This document shows positions 2,485-37,792 of a stretch of DNA of 64,000 nucleotides, piece after piece. The position numbers and the translations under genes are program-made. The notes under the pieces were generated by a model, which saw nothing but the letters and a program-made list of their open reading frames with translations, ran no database searches and was not told where the DNA came from. This DNA comes from Trachythela sp. YZ-2020 (taxonomy: Eukaryota > Cnidaria > Anthozoa > Malacalcyonacea > Clavulariidae), in the NCBI GenBank assembly GCA_016169945.1, contig JADLSH010000133.1, positions 496,001-560,000 on the forward strand, read 5' to 3'. Position 1 is the first letter of the stretch, and each line of letters starts with the position of its first letter.

Positions 2485-2559
2485 AAAACCAGCCAATAAA
2501 AAAGTATTGCAAGCCAATAAGAATATTGCAAACAAGAACCTTTAATCGTTGTATTCTGT

Positions 2560-3727
2560 ATAATGCTGCATCTATGGTTAAATTATCTTCAGGTAATCTC
2601 CACAGTTCTGGTTCAGGTAGAACAAGGTTCCTTTGGAGAAATGGAAAGAATTTGCTGTGGGAGCATATTTCTAGATGCCACTTTGCTGATCTAGATATGG
2701 GCCTTCACCAACTGCCAAAGTTAACCATTGAGCATATCAACCTAACATCTTATGCTAAAATGAAGGTTAACTTGGCAGTGCAGATTCTTTCCAAATCTAT
2801 GGCTGAGGCGCTCCGAAGAACTATGCCATTGGACAAAGTCTCATCAACTGCAAACCTCCGTCAGCTGATGAACGACTTATTTGATTGCTGCAACGTCCGA
2901 TCTACTCGTGAGCATCAAAGAAAGCAGAATGCACTCCTGGCACCCTATGAGAAGTGTGACGATTCACGCTTTGTGTGGCTGACAGACACATTTCTTAAGT
3001 ACTTTATTGACTAGAAAGAAGCAATTAGCAACAGGGAAGAAGAGTCCACCAAAGACCAGATGGCACGAATGTTTACTTCAACCCAAATTTTCGAAGGTTT
3101 ACAGCTATCAGTGAACAGTCTTATTGAATGCACTAAGTTTTTATTGGAGAATGGTGTTCCTTATGTCCTCACGGAGCGTTGCATGCAAGACTGCCTTGAA
3201 GAATACTTTGGCCATCAAAGACAACTAGGGAGAAGATCTGACAACCCTGATTCAGTTGAGTTCGGGTATAATGACAGGATTCTTCGGGTGCAAAGAAACG
3301 CTGGTCTTCTATCCAGAGGAAATGTTGGAGCACGACGTAAAGAAGGGGAATCACGCTGGACCAGTAGCGTCGCCAGGGAGGGGACTGGGGGGGACACGTC
3401 CCCCCCAGTTCTCCTCAAAATCACTTTTGAGATTCTCTCAAATCCGGTGAAAAAAAGGATGGGGGGGTACGTTTTCTGACCATCAGAATTCTGTCAAATC
3501 GTCCCCCAAAGTCCAGGAAATGGTATTTCAGAGACTCTAAATTAAAAAATTTCCCGGGGGACCATGACCGGACCCCCTAAAAAACCTCGCGCTAGACTCG
3601 CGCCTTCGGCCCTCCTTTTCAGCTCCCTCAATATCATTTTGTCCCCCCCACCTCTCCAGGTCTGGCGACGCTACTGCGCTGGACTATTATCAGAGAAAAG
3701 CCTTTGTTAAAAAAGAAAAAGAAATAA
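2560..3727 (+). pseudogene. P-element-type THAP transposase, C-terminal half (copy 1)
   Basis: The reading frame aligns by eye with the transposase at 32184-35495, starting just after the HLIKTTRN region of that copy (shared GSG...LPKLT and YxKMKV motifs). It continues through FDCCNVRS and the P-type MQDCLEEYFGHQRQLGRRSDN block, which carries the third acidic residue of the RNase-H-like fold. The N-terminal THAP domain and the first two catalytic aspartates are absent. Lesions are an in-frame TAG at 3012-3014 where the other copy has Trp, and a 315-bp MITE at 3362-3676. Skipping the MITE restores a basic C-terminus that stops at 3725-3727. In live elements this protein cuts and joins transposon DNA; this copy cannot. 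The start is not a true start codon: the left boundary is where similarity begins, with a possible splice acceptor (TTCAG) near 2591. Confidence 0.8.
3362..3676. mobile_element. hAT-like MITE with perfect 8-bp target duplication
   Basis: Inverted termini of at least 15 bp (CAGTAGCGTCGCCAG) bound a 315-bp non-coding element. Identical CGCTGGAC copies sit at 3354-3361 and 3677-3684. An 8-bp duplication with CAG-starting ends points to the hAT superfamily. It landed in the last codons of the copy-1 transposase, so it is younger than that copy. Confidence 0.88.
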
Positions 3728-4572: not shown

Positions 4573-5305
4573 CTACAATGTAGTTAATGACTGAGCTGCA
4601 GCGTCTGCCTGTTTCTTAAGTGTTAAGTGCAACTTCACCTTTTCTTTAATCTTTATCTGCGTTACCAGATCCTTTGTGTAAGAGAAGGATCTAACACGAA
4701 TGTACAGCATGATAATGTTCTCCAAACATACATCAGTAACAGGCGTTTTGCTTTCACCCAAGCTTACATCAGAAAGAATGGCATCACATGCTGATTTTAC
4801 CTTTGGCTTTTGTAAAACATCTGCTCTGACCTGTTGTAAAGGAATTTGACGAACCAAACCAGCACTGTATTGTCGAAATACTTTTTCACATTCAGCAGTT
4901 ATTCCCCATAGATTTTCACATGGATTCCGTAATATTCCTCGAGAAAGAGAGTCGATATATTCATTGTCATGCAATGACTTCATACTCAGCAACAGAGACT
5001 GAAGTTCAAATTGTTCTGGAGTTTCTTTTCCAGTAACTTTACTCTTTCGGTACATCTTCGCAATAATATACCCAGCAACATGATAATGTCCCAAATTCCG
5101 ATTTCTTAATTGGCTTTATGTCAGGTAGCTTTCCTTTGACATTTCCACGTTTGTAGAACCCAACGAGTAAATCAGGAATATGAACCATAATGAGATTATA
5201 TGCTGCATCGTACATTTCTTTCGACTCTGTTTTGAACATCTTCCCACTTTCAGGCATTAGTTTGTAGAAGTTCTTCAAGAGTTTGACTTTCCATAGCAAT
5301 AACAT
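4573..5305 (-). pseudogene. Companion protein of the P-type transposon, C-terminal part (copy 1)
   Basis: Two minus-strand frames (5305-5039 and 5094-4573), joined by one frameshift near 5090, align by eye with the + strand gene at 30221-31298. Shared landmarks are an FYKLMPES/FYELIPTS block, the HYHVAGYIIAK/LSYIAGYLLSK motif, a glycine-led RGILRNPCEN/RGGLVTPCKD motif, a VFRQ/IFRQ motif, and a terminal CLENIIMLYIRVRSFSYTKD block followed by a basic tail. The zinc-finger N-terminus present in copy 2 is missing. Function is not known. The YIAGY and RSFSY motifs recall, from memory, C-terminal regions of P/THAP9-related proteins. The gene runs towards the transposase at 2560-3727. Confidence 0.72.
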
Positions 5306-6068
5306 TTTCTTGCCCCAGACCCCCGTTTCCTATCCTTCTCTTCTACGGTCTATGATGTAAGACTTCCTTTCAAATGTTTGTTTTGTTGTGATGTTTCCGA
5401 ACTTCCTTTCAAATGTTTGTTGGAGACTAAGCCCCCTCCCCCTAGCCCACAATTCCGCCGCCCCTGTTATAATACATTCGAAAGGAAGAAAATAGCTAAA
5501 TGCTGACGTTAAATGAAGATAATACCAATGTCCCTGCGCCTACAGGAAGAACATGCCATACTTATTTTAACCTAGCTATGGGAAATAAATCTGCATAGAT
5601 TGCGCTCAAAGGAAGAACATGTCAAAATCAATGCGCAGACATTGTTACAAATTTCCCCTTGACTGATAATTACTATATACTGATACCTATAATACGATAT
5701 GTTATTCTTGCTATAAATTTTAAGCATGCTTATAAACTAAAATTGCCGAACAAATTGCTTCCACCACCTTTGTTTCGAGTACAGCACAAATAAGTTTACT
5801 ATCCAGCCAAAATTTTGCTACCACTTAATCTTAACTGAGGTTCTACCTACTTGCGCTAGTATTCTAGCCTAATCTCTAATCTCTAGACATAAGCTCTAAT
5901 CTCGGGATGGTTAATACAACAGCTATATACGCCACTTTGCTGGCATCTCCGAAGCCATGAAGAAAACATTCTGTTACGTGCTCTTCACGTTTGTCATAAA
6001 CACACATAGGAATTTTGATTTCCGTTGCTCTCTTTAAGTCGTCGACCCAATTAACCCATTTTACTTGA
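5306..6068. other. Intergenic with MITE-like GC-rich end and short direct repeat
   Basis: A 21-base sequence beginning ACTTCCTTTCAAATG occurs twice, near 5363 and 5400. A C-rich block at 5430-5465 ends in CGCCGCCCCTG, reminiscent of a hAT terminus (CAGGGGCGGC reversed), but no partner end was found. No gene is seen. Confidence 0.4.
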
Positions 6069-28459: not shown

Positions 28460-28654
28460 CCCTATGAGAAACTCCCTAAAGTAACTAAATACAAAATAAG
28501 TTTAAAAAATATATATGTAAATTACGTATATACATAAAAAAAGCAAAATAAATAAATAAATACATAAATATATAAATAAATAATATATAAACTAATTGAT
28601 CAAATTGATGCGAAGTTATCAAGGCTTGGCGAACTACTGCCTGAAAATAGGAAA

Positions 28655-29773
28655 AAAGACCTATTGACACCGAAAGGCATGCTCACAGAACGATCTTCCA
28701 CAAGGAGAGCAAGAAATGTTTTAATCAGTGCAAAAGAAGGCTAGCAAACAGTCTCGTTGACGAAAACCGAGTTCAACGGCGGAGAGTGAGCAGTGTTGCA
28801 CCGAGGGCCCTGTATAGTGAGGATGAAGAGTTTATTAGAAAGGCAATTGAGGACAAGGGCACTGCTCATGGAAGGCGTCATGATGCTGTGTTATATGTAA
28901 ATCATAGAGTCAAGAAAAAGGATTTCCTAACAGTTGCAAATTACTCCTTATTTAAGCGAGGCAGGAAGCTTATGAGAAGTGCAACCACTGTACAGAATAT
29001 AGCAAGGCCAAAGAACAAGAAATCCAGAGCATCGAAATTACATTGAGGAAAAGGACGTTTCTGTGCCAAAAACCCACCAAAAACAGAACAGGAAGATAAC
29101 GAATGCACACACCATCAGAGAAAGCACATTAAAAATGCGAAATCCGATCTGTTTCCAAAGATGGCCTTGTTATCTCTATGGATGGTAAAGCGTATCTACG
29201 TCCGGGGACTGACGTTGGATTCCGCAACACTAAATTGGGTAAAATATATGATGTTTCAGACAGAGAGAAATCCAGAAAACTTCCACAGCATGACTTAAGT
29301 ACTCCAGAGGTACATGTCACACCTTCATCATTCCGTTTTATGGCTGTGCATCAAGAAGTTATCGATGGAAAACCTCATTTGGTAAATGATACTGATCAGA
29401 CAATTGTGACTGTTAGGCCTAAAAAACTTCATACGTAGTTCGGAGAGTGTTTGGGCCTCAGAGACAAGGATGCTTAGGAGAGAGCTCCCTCAGCTATTTG
29501 AAGTCACGAAAGGTCCATATCGGTATAGTAGTATTCTTTTACAGCCATTTTCACGATTGTGTTTTCTATTTTCATGATACAACGACGTATGATGATATTA
29601 TGGCTGTGACAGAAAGCTCTGACTGCGAGTTTCGCAAATATGAAATGACTCGTTTGATATGGCTCAAGAATGAGCTAAACGAAGCACTACAAAGATGGTA
29701 CGAGGATAAACTTGATATTCAACCCGAGGAAGTTGCTCATGTAAATGAGTTAAAGGATACAGTAACTATTTAG
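28655..29773 (+). pseudogene. Decayed repeat-family protein gene (HGRRHD ... AYLRPGTDVGF ... LPQ.D)
   Basis: From about 28680 one frame reads KCFNQCKRRLANSLVDENR, then EDKGTAHGRRHDAVLY and RSATTVQNIARPKN. After frameshifts it continues CAKNPPKTE, HHQRKHIKNAKSDLF, MDGKAYLRPGTDVGF, SRKLPQHD, VHVTPSSFRF and, in a third frame, RRELPQLFEVTK. The order of blocks recalls a multi-copy protein family in cnidarian genomes for which I have no name. At least three frameshifts show that it is dead. It lies upstream of, and on the same strand as, the zinc-finger companion gene; whether it belongs to the same transposon is unknown. Confidence 0.5.
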
Positions 29774-30220
29774 ATGCAGGAACGTTTCCGATCCTAGTCT
29801 AAACAATTTTATGAAATGTTTGTAAATCAATTGAGCATTTTATGAATATTATAGACATAGAAAATCACCAAAAAATTCAATAATCATCCATCAAGTTCAC
29901 TTATTGCTATTTAAAACGTCAGAAAACAGAAGCTATCAAAATGTCACATAACACAGCATTTGCATTTGGCACTTAATTAAGAAAGGCAAAACATATTGTG
30001 CACAGTCATTAAGCTTTGTAATCATTATATGGATCTATTGTTGTGAAATATATGCTTGCCGCCACTGTCGTCAAAACTTCGCTTTTTCTGTAATGGAGTA
30101 AATAAATTTCATTCCTACCGAAGCAGTTTTTTTCAAATGAACTCGTGACTTATCTTGTGCAGCAAGTTGAAGAGGATCTTAAAGTAAACAACATTTTCTT
30201 GGCTATAGTCAACAGTATTC
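29774..30220. other. Spacer upstream of the zinc-finger gene
   Basis: AT-rich, no frame recognised. It may contain the promoter, a first intron of the companion gene, or the left end of the transposon; no terminus was identified. Confidence 0.3.
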
Positions 30221-31298
30221 TTGCATTATGTGTATTCATACATTGAAGAGGACCAGGAAGATATAGAAACTGATTTCGTGGAAGCGTTAGCGGAGATGGT
30301 GGGCGAAAAGCAGTTTCCTTGTGATAGTTGCGACAAGGTTTGCAAATCCAAAGCTGGCTTGACCAGACATGTGAATGCAAAACATCGCGATAAAACTAGT
30401 ACTACGGCAAACAAAGACGTCCCCGCACTGACAAAGGACGGATTAATCTCCATCGTGGATAAAGTGAAGTTCAAAATAACTGAGGAAGGTTATTGGGACC
30501 TTGAAATAACGTCGGATTTGGGGAAAATCACCTCGAACGATTCTCTGTTCAACGCTGTACTGCCGATATACGAGCGATTTTGTGGGAAACGAAACCAAGA
30601 TAAGTTTCTCACAGAATTCTATGAGCTTATCCCCACATCATGTGCCCTCTTGAAGTGCACAAATCAGTCATTATGTAGCCTTGTGATGATCTCCATGACA
30701 GACCACTTAGTGGCTTTGTTTAAGTCTGGGCATACTAGTCAGCTAAAGCCTTCAAGTGACAACCCACCAGAACTAAGTGAACATGAACGTGGACCCTTGT
30801 CTTACATTGCTGGGTACCTATTATCAAAACTACAAAAGAAATGTTCAAGTAAACCCAATGACGAGCTCCAGACATTATTGCAAAATATGAAATGTCCTGG
30901 TGTTGAGAACACCTATATCGATGCTCGCAGTAGAGGTGGACTTGTGACACCATGCAAGGACTTGGTGGAGATTGTAGAGATTGTCGAGGTAATATTTCGA
31001 CAAATTAATTGCCAACCAAAACGATTTACTGAAGAAAATTCCATGCGACACCTTATGCAATGATGCACTTGAGTCACCATTGCTCAAATCACTGTGGGAA
31101 AACATTTTGCACGGATGCAACCAAGAGTTGTCAAAACAAACTACCAAGCTTTGCCTGGAAAACATTATAAAACTATATTTAAAGGTCCGCAGCTTTTCAT
31201 ATGCAAAAGACTACATAAGCAAATTTAAAATTCAACAAAAAGCAGCAAGGAGCAAAGGACTGCGGAAAGAACTAAAAAGGCAGAGTCAGAAGTCATGA
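30221..31298 (+). CDS. C2H2 zinc-finger companion protein of the P-type transposon (copy 2)
   Basis: Domains in order: an acidic start; one classical C2H2 finger, FPCDSCDKVCKSKAGLTRHV then NAKH (CX2CX12HX4H); a middle alpha-rich part (LPIYERFCGKRNQDKFLTEF); the motif LSYIAGYLLSKLQKKC; RGGLVTPCKDLVEIVE; and, after a frameshift or short gap near 31065, CLENIIKLYLKVRSFSYAKD with a basic tail ending at 31298. Copy 1 (4573-5305, -) shares everything after the finger. The 30221 start (MHYVYSY) may be intron-derived, because the conserved part begins at EEDQED. The function is unknown. A DNA-binding partner or regulator of the facing transposase is my inference from its position. Confidence 0.65.
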
Positions 31299-32183
31299 TT
31301 GAAAATTGCATATACTGTACTTTCATTGTAACTGGAATATATTGCATAATGCATACCATACTAAGTAATCAGTGCATTTTGAACTATTTTCAAACATATT
31401 TGAATTAGGAATATATGAAAACACTGTTGATATGAGATTATATATATAGATTAATGTTAAGGCTTTTTTTGGCCAAAACATAGTGGCTGAAGGATTGATT
31501 GCAATTCTGAGATTGCAAGTCTGATTTGTCAGAGGGTGAGGTGTTGCTCAAAAAACCATTGAATTATATAGCTGATTTTCAATATACAAGGCAGACTTAC
31601 AACCATAAGCCAGAATTTGATGTAGCAGCACACTGACTGGATCTTACCATCAATCATTGGGTCACTAATTAATAAGTCATTAATTTACCCTCAGAACAAC
31701 ATCAAGTTTCTGGCCTGACATGAGATTTCAGTAGAACTTCTATTAATTAAACCAAAATCCAGCATACTTTGTACATATTTGCAGTTATATAGTTTATCAT
31801 TAAAATACATATAAATCTACACTGTCACTGCATTCAATACTTATCTATAGACTATAGCAATCAAATTTATAGGACCAAAACCATTGATCGCAAAACAAAG
31901 ACATTTGAAAACTCAATATTTGAGTGATAAATAAACCGTATCAAAATCTTGGTTTGTGTATAACTCAAATATTGAGTCTTAAATGTCTCTTGTTCAGAGT
32001 TTGCTTTGTATTATAGATTTGTACAAGACCTTTAAAATAATTTCCATGCACTTATAACTGTCTATTGTCTCTTGTCCATAGTTTGCTTTGTATTATAATA
32101 GCTTTATATGAGACCTTTAACATAGTTCAAAATTATTTTCATGCACTTAATTATAATTGTCTGTTGACATGCATGCACAAAAG
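31299..32183. other. Spacer between the convergent genes of copy 2, with direct repeat
   Basis: A roughly 85-95 bp unit (TTTGCTTTGTATTATA, then ACCTTTAA, then CATGCACTTA) is tandemly duplicated at 31990-32165. CAATATTTGAGT near 31914 and its inverse near 31966 form a small hairpin. Non-coding. Confidence 0.6.
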
Positions 32184-32822
32184 TCATTTCTTTTTTCTAG
32201 TTCTCTTCTTTAAAGGCTCGTCACTAACAGCATACCACTTTTTCTTACCATATCTTCCCCCTGAATTGCCACTTACTGATGGGGCAATGTCTCTCTGAGC
32301 AGCAAGGGTTAGGTCATTGTATCCAAACTGTTCTGCAGAAGGATTATCTGACCGCCCTCGCAGAAGTAGTCCTCAATCACATCTTGCATGAAGCGTTCTG
32401 AAAGAACATACGAGAATCCTTCAGAAAGGAGAAACTTTATGGCTTCGATGTGCGAGTGGACGGTTATCTTGAAACCTTCATAGGTCTGGCGGGACAGAAA
32501 CATCTTTTCCCTTTGAATAGGTTTGTATGGGCCATCTCTTTCGGCAACACTTGCTCTCCAGTCTTCCAAGTACTTCAGGAAAGTACCCTTCATCCAAACA
32601 AGACGGTCATCATCAGGGCTTTCGTAGGGCTTGATCCGATCATTTCGCTTTCTTTCATGCTCCGTCAATGACCTGACATTCGAACAATCAAAAAAATCAT
32701 TGATCATCTGGCAGAACATTGCAGTGCCAACAACACTTGGATCTTCACACTCCAGCAAACAAGTTGAAACAGTTCTACTCAGGACTTGAACAGCCAGTTT
32801 TACCTTAATCATAATAATATAC

Positions 32823-33010
32823 ATTAGTAAAATTATATAGGTGATTATTGAAAATTCTCAACACTGATTGGTTGCGCTACCTCGGATTAATACGCGATAA
32901 TCACCTAAAGCGTTTTTAAGCTGCTTTTATTGTAAATATTCAATTAAAATATTTTTGAAATGTGCATTCTTTATTTTTTTCCAAATAATCACCTATGTAA
33001 TTTTACTAAA
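32823..33010. mobile_element. MITE with 23-bp inverted termini
   Basis: TAGTAAAATTATATAGGTGA on the left and the inverse of TCACCTATGTAATTTTACTA on the right bound 188 bp. Non-coding. Confidence 0.8.
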
Positions 33011-33157
33011 ACAATTATTCGCCTCGACTTCGTCTCGGTTTTTATTCACCTTGCCTTCGGCGAATAATTGTTAAATATTTAATATAAAGGTTAACTTGAT
33101 CAGCCAAGCAAAAGTAGCTGCTATGATAGAGAGAAAAATTAAAAGCAAAAATCCTAC

Positions 33158-33383
33158 TGTCAATGCAATAGAAGTGTTGATAAAATATTGCACGAATTCA
33201 GTTCATCAATTTGAAAAATACATTTGATAGAAAATTGCTCAACTTCCTGTTTACTGGCATGCTTGTTCTCAATTGGTCAATCAGTCACTGAAACAAATAG
33301 CCATTGGTCCATTCACACAAACAGGAAGTTGAGCAATTTTCTATCAAATATATTTTTCAACACTTCTATTGCATCGACAGTAA
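33158..33383. mobile_element. Foldback element with two nested arm pairs
   Basis: CTGTCAATGCAATAGAAGTG has its inverse at 33363-33382. Further in, TTTGATAGAAAATTGCTCAA plus CTTCCTGTTT is mirrored at 33319-33350. The centre carries CAATTGGTCAAT. Non-coding. Confidence 0.85.
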
Positions 33384-35245
33384 CTAATCAATTATACAAT
33401 TCTAATCTAAAATAGAGTTTGTACCTTCATCTTGGAGTATCCAGTCAACAGAACATGATCCAGCGTCAGTTTGGGCAATCTGTGCAAAGCATACTGCTGA
33501 TCATGGTGGAACAGGTCAGCAATATGCTTAAACAACAGATACTGACCGTCATTCCACATGTACCGACTACACGAGCCTGAGCCAGAGTTATAGAGACAGT
33601 TTCTGGTGGTCTTGATCAAATGTGGCACATCCGCAAAGAAATAGATCATCCGAGCCAGAAAGAAGAGGTTGGGTGTCTTGTAAACAAGACCATCGGGTAG
33701 TGTGCCACCGAGCTTGACGTGGAGTGCAAAGAATTTCCGGTTAGGGGAAGCACCATCATTGACAGCTGCTATTACCCATAATTTTACTGTTGTTGCAAGC
33801 ACTCCAACCACTTTCCAAAACAATGGAAGCAACTGAAATGATGTCACATTGCCAGTAAAATAATAGGCAACAACATGCTTCAAATTGGTGCAAAGCCCCC
33901 TAACCAAGAAAGCCAGTGTACGGGATGCAATAGGGATATCTTCATCCACATTGGCAAAAGTGGTTAACGGATCCCCAAGATCAATGAAGCCAATCAGCTC
34001 ACCGGACGTTTTGTCGAAAACAAGATTTTCCTGAATCTTCATCTCGTCCATGATGACCGCAACATACTTTTGGATTCCAGTAAACTTTGAAGATTTCTCT
34101 TTCAGTTCTTCAATGTTCTCTTTAATAATGCCCGCTCCAGGTTTAAAATAGTTCTTGTAATCACGAAGAACACGTTCACTGGGTAATATAAGAGCTCCAC
34201 TGTCTCTAAGCTCTCGATATGCAGAAGGAGATTTACAGTATTTATAGTGCGAATCGGATCATTTGGGGATGATACCTGCGTCCCATTTTCTTTGTTTTCA
34301 GCAGGTGGATTTGTTGTTACCAAAAGAACTTCATGTGTGGGGTGGAATCTAGATTCTGTCCACTCATGATGGTCAATAGATCCTTCTCGAAGGGCTCACT
34401 CACACTCACCGAATTCTTCTCTATTTGTGTTTGTAGGTTTTTAACTTTCGCCTCCAGTTGCTTACACTGCAAACGATTAGCTACCACTGTTGCTCTAAGC
34501 TTTTCAGAGCTACAGGCAGCCAGGGGAGCTTAGCTTTAGCAGGGGCACTAGAAGAACGTTTCTTTCGATTTTGTTGCACTAGAATCTTCTTTTGTACCTG
34601 CTTACATGGATCACAAATCACTTGCTCTCCATCAACTTCTCTACCAAGTAGGAGCTGGAATCCACACAACGAAAAACTACCAGAACTCCAAAATTTGACT
34701 CCATCGATGCTCTTTGGAATGGAATGCCGTACAACATCAGAATCGCTAAAGGACGAATGGCTTGTGTCACCAGGATCTTTAGCAACAGACTGAATATACT
34801 CATCGTGGCGTAATCCTTCGTATATCAGATATTTCTCACCTTTGATGGCTTGCAAAAGTTCAGCAACTCCAGCAGAGTCAATTCGTCGTCGGTGCGTAGT
34901 GTACAAAGGATGAATATCAGGTAGCAGCCAATTGTAAATATGTAGCGAAAATTGCAAGCACGAATCAACATGTAACACGTATCTTGGAATTGAGTAAGTT
35001 GTATCCGAAAGTTCAATTCTAATCTCCGTGTTGTTGCACGTTGTTATGATCCATGGATCAGGTATAATTTCCCTTATTTTATCGGCAAACTTTTCGAAGC
35101 TTTCATCAGGGAGTAAATCACTTCCCATCTCAACAGGTGGCGAAGATTCTGAAGTCGAAGTACCCTCGCTAGCTTCAGCGGTATATAAGTATACGAAGTG
35201 TCTAATTACCATAAATTTGCGCAAAAATAAGCGGTCAATACTTAC

Positions 35246-35495
35246 GTTGAAAAATCACTTCAGGTTTAAAATGTCGTTCACATAAAAAGATAGTGTTTGC
35301 GTCAATCTTTTTCTTCAGCTCTGGTGTCATTTCCCTTGTCCTAAGAATGACTCGAAGCCATTCTTTGCGAGCATCCGTCTTCAATTTCACTGTAACCTCG
35401 GAGTCGCCTCGCCCGGGAAAAGGTATTTTAAATAGTGAAAGATCACTCTTTCGACCAGTTGAACAGCCAAACAGAGCACAGTTGGCACCTGGCAT
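35246..35495 (-). CDS. THAP zinc-finger exon of the copy-2 transposase
   Basis: ATG at 35495-35493 starts MPGANCALFGC, the CX4C start of a THAP domain. KIPFPGRG follows, then a tryptophan (KEWLRVILR) and LCERHF, the CX2H end. A GTAAGT donor follows at 35245. THAP domains bind transposon ends in P elements. The next exon probably starts after a TTAG acceptor near 35205, giving a very short intron. Confidence 0.85.
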
Positions 35496-35695
35496 TGTGT
35501 GCCAACTGTAAAACACTTAAAATTTGCGACCCAATGAGGATAACTTTGCAGTTTCCGAACAGAAGTACTTCCCTGCAATACAAAACTCTATTGTGTTTTC
35601 ACACCCTATGCACCAAAAAAATCACGTGACGCGAATAACAGAGAACAATAACATATATTGGGGGTGTGGCCAGCTAGCCAAACCAGCTTAGTCTA

Positions 35696-35995
35696 TTAAC
35701 TGTGGTCGTGTCTAATCACAAAATCTATTGTATTTCTCAAATAGATTGCCACACAACCACCATTTCTATTACGGTGTTTTGTCACAACGGAATAACCATC
35801 TACATGATATTCCGCGATGTCTATAGTATCGTCAAGCCGCGTTTCATTCAATATAAGGATATCAACATATTTAGTGGCCATATGAATCCGTAGCTCATCA
35901 ATATGCTTTATTACGCTTGCAATATTCAGGGCTGCAATTTTAAATCCCTTTAGTTTTGGTAACCCTAGCTGAAAATTTGGCTTATTACTAGTATT
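35696..35995 (-). pseudogene. LINE endonuclease, N-terminal fragment
   Basis: The frame reads LKGFKIAALNIASVIKHIDE, ILILNETRLDDTI and NGGCVAIYLR, the first third of an AP-endonuclease domain (N of the LN motif and E of NET are metal-binding positions in this family). It closely resembles the start of the endonuclease at 46718-47482. It stops at about 35698, where the P-type transposon flank begins, so the rest of this LINE is lost. Confidence 0.8.
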
Positions 35996-36392
35996 AAGCC
36001 TCTTACAGACGAGCAAGTTTTCTATGACAAGTTTTTATATGACAAGTTTTATTTGCAAATTGTACGTGTGTACTTACAACAAATTTTCTATGACAAGTTT
36101 GTGGTTTTCTGATCGCCATGATAGCTAATACAACAATAGATTGCTGACCAACCGCTCCTAAGTGCTCAAATTACTTTGACAAGTTTTCCTTGTTGACCCA
36201 TACAGACTAGCAAAATTTGTACTTTGCCAATTTTTTCTATGACAAGTACACTTGTTCAAAAGCTAGCATGTTAGCTTTTGAACAAGTGTACTTGTCATAG
36301 AAAAAATTGCCAAAGTTGCGTATACAGATGAGCAAATAAAACTTGTCATATAAAAACTTGTCATAGAAAACTTGCTCGTCTGTAAGAGGCTT
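35996..36392. mobile_element. Near-perfect palindromic MITE, 397 bp
   Basis: Ends AAGCCTCTTACAGACGAGCA are mirrored at 36373-36392, flanked by TAGTATT on both sides (35989-35995 and 36393-36399). Arms are nearly identical over 50-60 bases. The centre (about 36227-36308) is a second, almost perfect palindrome sharing the word TTTTCTATGACAAGT with the arms. The close match between arms suggests recent insertion. It sits inside the LINE, between its endonuclease and first ORF. Confidence 0.9.
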
Positions 36393-36516
36393 TAGTATTT
36401 GGCGTGTTTACGTGTGTCTCGGCTATAGGCTCAGTCACAGGAAAATTGGGTTCATCAGGATCATCACTCAATATGGGAATTTGGTCGCTAGCTACAGAGG
36501 GTTCTACACAACATAA

Positions 36517-37792
36517 TCAATTTTTATAATAGTTAATAAAATTACTAGTAAGTATTGAGTTACCATTTTGTGTTAGGTGGATACCTCCGCGATTTAGTTC
36601 CTTCACACCAACTTTGCTATGGGCTATATATCCATATCCATGTTGATGGCATAACTTCCTCAAGGCTTTGTTGGTGGCTTTAGCTTTGGCGTTTAGGTCG
36701 GCGTCGGCTCTTGCTATGAGTTCTGAGATGGAAACCTTAGTCGACTCCGTTTGGACGACTTTAGCCAAATTTATCAAACTCTCAGCGATGGCTTTGGGCT
36801 CTTTGATTCTGAGGTCATTGGTTCCACAGTGAATTGCTATTTCAGCAGGGGCACTTTGCGTCGTTGGCTTCACATAATGGTACATGTCATCAACCTTCGC
36901 GCCCGAAAATGATTTAACCACGAAACGCTGTTTAACCTCTTTGCCAACGTTCCATCCCTGCACATTTTTCACCATTCAGTCTCCTATGAGAACTATGGTA
37001 TTGGAAGAATTCTTTTCACTGGCTGTGTTCGTTGGAGGCGGATAAGTTTGTTCAGATTCACTTGATTGATCATTCATCGACTTTGGACTGTTTTTCGTAC
37101 TGTTCTTCTTGCTCTTATCGCTTTTCGGCTTTACTTGATCAGTTTTGGCTTCGACTTTCGAAGTGTTATCGCCACAGCAGAGCCTGAGTTATGTTAAGAG
37201 ACTCGCTTTTTCCTCTTTTAGAATCTCCTTTTCTTGTTCAGCCAGGCATAGCTTATGTTTCAAATCAGCATTTTCGGTTTTTAGTCGTTCAGCTTCAACA
37301 ACGGTCATTGTTTGCCACGGATTGCTGTTAGGAGAAAGTCCAAATTCTGTTCTCAAGCTTGCCAATTTAATTTTTACTTCGTCCTCAAATTCGCTTATCT
37401 TTGCTTCGAAGACTGATTGTTGAGAAAGTTCATTTAGCTCGGCATTTAGGTCTTGAACTGTAGACTCATGCGGATTTTGTGTCATTTCGATGTCGGCTTC
37501 TGCTTCTGGAAATGATTGGTTGGTAATACTGGCTCTATCGTTTTCCAAAGTAGATTGATCAAGGGTTATTGTAGCCTGGGCAGCTGAAGCATTGCAATCT
37601 TGCCCACAGTCTTCTCCGCGGCATCATCGTCTTTCACCCCAGCATCATCATTTACAAGCATGGCGGTTAACAACCGGGTCAATAAGACTTGTTTTGTCCC
37701 TTTACTATCAATACCTCTGGTGTTTAGTTATTCTCGAAGCTTAGGTAGGCCTACGTGAAATTTTACAATCGCTTTAACGTTTGGGAAGCTCA
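36517..37792 (-). pseudogene. LINE first ORF: SAP motif, coiled coil, SGNH-esterase-like domain
   Basis: From ATG near 37792: MSFPNVKAIVKFHVGLPKL, then RGIDSKGTKQVLLTRLL, which is a SAP DNA-binding motif with one in-frame stop in its first helix. A coiled coil follows (37548-37189: LNAELNELSQQ, AERLKTENADLKHKL). The SGNH-hydrolase-like domain (to 36517) reads VLIGD, a stop, then MVKNVQGW, FSGAKVDDMYHYV, IAIHCGTNDLR and a closing NRGGIHLTQNGN. GTND and the IH.T.NG pair match the SGNH family's Asn and His blocks. In active LINEs such proteins bind RNA. Three or more stops or frameshifts disable it. Confidence 0.8.

Follow-up and report, generated by a model that had tools for sequence, protein, structure and literature searches.

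A P-type transposon of Trachythela whose transposase core and C-terminal domain appear to be encoded by two convergent genes

Introduction

The transposase of the Drosophila P element is one chain in which the core and the C-terminal domain (CTD) are joined by a disordered linker (6P5A/6PE2). Here we describe a P-type element of the anthozoan Trachythela sp. YZ-2020, a copy of which lies in a 64,000-nt stretch of the 578-Mb genome (the window, to whose positions coordinates refer unless a contig is named). This element shares with the fly element the THAP domain, the RNase H domain with its GTP-binding insertion domain and the CTD fold, together with inverted termini beginning with CA and, presumably, a cut-and-paste mode of movement. 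It differs from it in that the CTD is encoded by a gene on the opposite strand, hereafter the companion, along with a C2H2 zinc finger and a helical domain, in having an extra beta-rich region after the THAP domain, and in making a target duplication of 7 bp where that of the fly element is 8 bp.

Elements with two genes are familiar from other superfamilies. In PIF/Harbinger and Pong the second protein is a DNA-binding helper of the transposase and is not known to be related to the transposase C-terminus. These elements, like the one described here, have two open reading frames (ORFs), as set out in the relevant passage of PMC5543537, and RAG-like transposons such as ProtoRAG have two convergent genes within one element (in the corresponding part of PMC7204232). 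The Trachythela element does not encode the RAG1L/RAG2L protein pair, and its convergent layout resembles that of the RAG-like transposons but by a different history. Within the P superfamily, THAP9 genes and the zebrafish P-like elements are likewise homologous to the P transposase; THAP9 is a single gene homologous to the fly protein along its entire length (PMC7776569), and the passages on THAP9 and the zebrafish elements describe no companion. Galileo of Drosophila also makes 7-bp target duplications, although its termini are long and its target consensus, GTAGTAC, is unlike the three sites found here; the parts of PMC2775673 that treat it describe no second gene. The literature passages searched yielded no recognisable two-gene or split P element, while Repbase, which lay outside that search, may record P elements with two ORFs whose CTD was not recognised.

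Results

The companion gene carries the P transposase CTD that the facing transposase lacks. The fly domain is present nearly whole (115 of 118 residues), the basic C-terminal region is kept, and the CTD is found within elements whose companions are as little as 25–28% identical. No CTD was detected on the transposase strand at 34 loci, by a search that did find its control, nor in any of 120 public transposases, 75 of which have a complete tail, and the transposase gene ends at the point at which, in the fly protein, the disordered linker starts. Judged by its domains, we assign the element to the P superfamily as a member in which, departing from a feature of that superfamily, core and CTD are not part of the same polypeptide.

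The core has the order THAP, beta-rich region, coiled coil, helix-turn-helix (HTH), and RNase H with GTP-binding insertion, and so shows both the N-terminal THAP domain and the interrupted RNase H core by which the superfamily is recognised. Three acidic residues of P0210, a relative of the window transposase, are invariant in 33 aligned relatives (D464, D603 and E814), and the corresponding motifs occur in the window copy; from alignment to the fly P protein we take these to be the catalytic three. The beta-rich region spans residues 132–262 of P0210, between the THAP domain and the coiled coil, with ten-residue means of the predicted local distance difference test (pLDDT) mostly between 77 and 93; it has invariant cysteines nearby and is not included in the segment alignable to the fly transposase. 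With phmmer, a short RNase H N piece gave no match in PDB, whereas a longer relative did. This genome is very rich in THAP genes or elements, with 1556 THAP candidates, the best 150 of which were scored.

The limits of the mobile unit are given by two copies on contig C82 (L039 and L041), which are 98.5% alike over approximately 6.0 kb and show no alignment beyond that stretch. The shared stretch contains both genes, and opens and closes with CACAGTTA(A/G)TAGACTAAGCTGGTTTGGCTAG in inverted orientation, as termini 32 bp long. Both ends are available for three copies, these two and a third on contig C297 (L029/L053), and in all three the termini lie outside both genes and are flanked by 7-bp target duplications (CCATGAG and GGTGGAC at L039 and L041, CCTTAAT at the third); no 8-bp duplications were found. 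The companion-side terminus is present at 27 of the 30 companion loci L009–L038. The classical arrangement of a single gene between the termini is therefore not seen in L039 or L041, where both genes are inside.

The pairing of the two genes was followed across the genome by searches that took the best-scoring candidates and went exon by exon, and all counts of places and pairs that follow are among the matches listed. With the window proteins as queries there were at least 143 companion and at least 142 transposase matches, which merged to 137 and 135 places and formed 68 pairs within 6 kb, all convergent, with a median gap of 2.5 kb between the searched parts. Across these 68 pairs, identity to the respective window protein covaries between companion and transposase (Spearman 0.78). 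On addition of a diverged companion query and a further transposase query, the numbers rose to at least 184 companion places, at least 140 transposase places and at least 97 pairs within 6 kb, convergent without exception (97 of 97). The number expected, computed when 95 pairs were known, is about 0.5 under uniform placement and about 2 from the density of transposases 12–56 kb from companions. In public data, 10 of 171 listed companions are on a contig exactly as long as the contig of one of 120 listed transposases, including one of 5,652 bp, where shifted lengths give a mean of 0.21 and a maximum of 3; such equality suggests, short of proof, that companion and transposase are on the same contig.

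Because the termini are outside both genes, the duplications flank the whole unit and every close pair is convergent, the movement of transposase and companion as one unit is supported. This is what the preliminary description of the locus, made from the sequence of the window, had proposed, and the shared outer termini and the convergent co-occurrence within about 6 kb far above chance that it looked to are both found; its 8-bp duplications have become 7 bp. No terminus occurs between the two genes in L039 or L041, an arrangement which that description had named as speaking against a single unit.

The companion is more than a detached CTD. The two cysteine and two histidine ligands of its C2H2 finger are invariant in 16 aligned diverse relatives, and the finger hence has a function. 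A VIA-align search gave no clear match for the helical domain (residues 118–230), a result that proves nothing. Named relatives of the two proteins come from the anthozoans Stylophora pistillata, Paramuricea clavata and Dendronephthya gigantea. Many public companion proteins have the precomputed Pfam assignment PF22824, which was not listed at E up to 1 when seven were rescanned against Pfam.

In the window itself a P-type transposase remnant (minus strand) faces a companion remnant (plus strand), tail to tail. The companion remnant occupies 30243–31298, as judged from ORFs and alignment to the longer copies L039–L041, with the C2H2 finger at 30314–30385 (residues 36–59 of the ORF beginning at 30209; Pfam zf-C2H2 in ORF 30209–31063, 20.3 bits, under the Pfam cut-off of 25.2) and the part equivalent to the CTD at 30770–31298, which includes YIAGY (30803), RGGL (30932), RSFSY (31188) and the basic tail. 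The transposase remnant runs from 35495 to 32184 on the minus strand and ends in ...KWYAVSDEPLKKRTRKKK*, with no CTD. Its THAP exon is at 35253–35495, a separate stretch in tblastn (Pfam THAP in ORF 35235–35516, minus strand, 32 bits against a cut-off of 23.9). The main exon, placed like the last one by Pfam, tblastn and motif positions, lies at 33419–35140 and holds the region after THAP, the HTH and RNase H N (TNP-like_RNaseH_N in ORF 33407–34258, minus strand, E 4.4e-23), with the DEMK motif at 34037–34048 and the DVPHL motif at 33617–33631. The last exon, 32184–32806, holds the remainder of the GTP-binding insertion domain (TNP-like_GBD in ORF 32309–32857, minus strand), RNase H C with the IEDYF motif at 32363–32377, and the basic tail. 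Inverted repeats with arms of 42 nt and 30 nt occur at 33155–33382, in the last intron.

These assignments by Pfam and motif position bear out the facing pair of a THAP/RNase-H transposase and a gene with one C2H2 finger and the YIAGY, RGGL and RSFSY motifs, as first described, and the two genes do converge, although the spacer between the stop codons (31299–32183) is 885 bp, as read from the codons, where about 1 kb had been given. The copy is damaged. Alignment to the longer copies starts only at 30243, approximately the first 51 companion residues having gone together with the left terminus, which was sought in the window copy and not found; the companion frame is broken near 31000 and the transposase is spread over several frames. 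The right terminal inverted repeat is at 35673–35704 (minus strand), and a loose terminus pattern has 4 matches in the window against 4.1 by chance, the sole exact one being 35688–35704. With its left end missing and both genes frame-broken, the window copy is a dead element.

A second copy in the window, described earlier as having the same two genes, is real and its two gene pieces are again convergent, but it is fragmentary: a transposase fragment from the GTP-binding domain to RNase H C at 2520–3380 on the plus strand (TNP-like_GBD, E 3.6e-16; tblastn) and a companion fragment with part of the CTD at 4573–5329 on the minus strand (matching pieces 4588–5272). The Pfam and tblastn searches that found these pieces detected neither THAP nor RNase H N nor C2H2 sequence there, and a terminus was sought and not found.

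On the left, overlapping open frames at 28651–29773, probably another repeat, adjoin the broken end. On the right (35705–36975) are what are presumably a long interspersed nuclear element (LINE)-like endonuclease (35696–36034, minus strand) and an esterase-like ORF (36517–36975, minus strand), and the element would on these identities adjoin or sit in a LINE remnant. A nested foldback at 35996–36392 consists of a 61-nt perfect inverted repeat, its arms 275 nt apart, enclosing a palindrome with 48-nt arms.

Discussion

We propose that this is a split P-type transposon, in which core and CTD are separate convergent genes whose proteins form a two-subunit transposase, and we give this reading a probability of roughly 0.8. 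The first gene encodes the catalytic core, ending where the fly linker begins, and the second, tail to tail with it inside the same termini, encodes the C2H2 finger, the helical domain and the CTD. The data show which domains each gene has, the loss of the CTD from the transposase, the pairing, the termini and the selection. Core and companion, we infer, would assemble on the transposon ends, the companion being needed for transposition; where the CTD acts between subunits in any case, the linker could be dispensed with. Since the companion carries the CTD that the transposase lacks, its most likely role is that of an enzyme subunit, and the finger, at a guess, probably adds DNA binding or tethering. 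The earlier suggestion that the companion may regulate or assist transposition, or compete for DNA, was imprecise and did not recognise the CTD.

Several observations weigh against the proposal. The similarity of the CTD in sequence alone is weak, and its identification draws jointly on profile, fold and position. The ratio of nonsynonymous to synonymous substitution rates (dN/dS) of the companion between subfamilies is 0.14–0.20 for L010–L012 versus L024 and L026–L029, and 0.23–0.25 for L024 versus L026–L029 (8 distinct places, L039–L041 repeating L010–L012), but these ratios are rough as dS is high (0.8–1.9). Between close copies it is 0.55–1.28 in seven pairs, near 1 for several, with 0.20 in one further pair and an undefined value in another. 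The values between subfamilies do point to purifying selection, and the pattern as a whole is what one would see if selection for transposition preserves the gene while copies, once inserted, may decay freely. For the transposase, dS between subfamilies is saturated and gives no dN/dS.

Also to be set against the proposal are the 87 of 184 companions and 43 of 140 transposases that have no listed partner within 6 kb. A lack of partners in most copies, which the preliminary description had also named as contrary to a single unit, is not what is seen for the transposases, although nearly half of the companions are unpaired. The searches went exon by exon over the best-scoring candidates, but certain copies truly have only one of the genes. 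We considered whether transposases with open frames of 815–838 residues and no listed companion are single-gene elements, and for those inspected rejected this, because all four (L072, L073, L074 and L075) have a diverged companion downstream on the opposite strand, their seeming lack of a partner coming from the reach of the searches, and because no CTD was detected in the transposases. Conversely, of the 54 companions whose open frame reaches at least 380 residues, 21 have no listed transposase within 10 kb. The one that was inspected (L076, C253:1069800–1071700), a derivative with an open companion, has a transposase that has lost about 2.8 kb internally, and on the two sides of this deletion it is 99% and 96% identical to L071. 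That such companion-only copies are host genes is rejected for this one of the 21, an internally deleted element. Nine more companions (427–449 residues, 46–48% identity, no listed transposase) may be similar deletion derivatives.

An alternative is that the companion serves in target-site choice or nuclear assembly, much like the second protein of PIF/Harbinger, its CTD fold being used only to contact the core. The finger with its invariant ligands and the helical domain are additions to the fly CTD that such a factor might have, and there is the precedent of two ORFs in PIF and Pong elements (PMC5543537, in the passage noted above). However, the 115 of 118 CTD residues retained are more than a docking piece would need, and we regard this explanation, which overlaps with that of a split transposase, as unlikely.

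The main rival holds that the CTD has been turned into a repressor or titrating regulator: the companion would bind either the core or the transposon ends and so restrain transposition, and the core would work without a CTD. A truncated 66-kDa protein represses in flies, as reported in the part of PMC7776569 that deals with it, and both the open companion beside a deleted transposase in L076 and the long-frame companions with no listed transposase are consistent with such a role. Yet no tested core has a CTD, notwithstanding that the fly CTD contacts both transposon and target DNA (same source, in the section concerned), and the retention of the CTD within elements down to 25–28% companion identity better fits a required subunit; an element would moreover gain little by keeping a repressor. 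We consider this quite unlikely.

That two unrelated mobile genes adjoin by chance, or that one element once captured a host gene, is very improbable notwithstanding the copies with no listed partner, since pairing (97 convergent pairs against about 0.5–2 expected, with gaps of about 2.5 kb between searched parts, and co-divergence of partners) and termini outside both genes in all three complete copies exclude a chance neighbour, and CTD homology excludes an unrelated captured gene.

Returning to the split transposase, it is in our judgement about an even question whether there is an old, widespread P lineage with an obligate two-subunit enzyme, whose zinc-finger CTD subunit works in trans and, in addition, governs the place or time of integration. 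If so, derivatives that keep the CTD gene and delete the core would either parasitise complete elements or be their partners. As the lineage itself has separated the domains, omission and add-back would allow a simple test of what the CTD seen in the fly cryo-EM complex does for the P transposase, and a split transposase would be easy to control experimentally, being active only when both halves are present. In evolutionary terms, a recombinase would here have become a convergent two-gene system through the splitting off of one domain, by a route other than that which led to the RAG1/RAG2-like layout.
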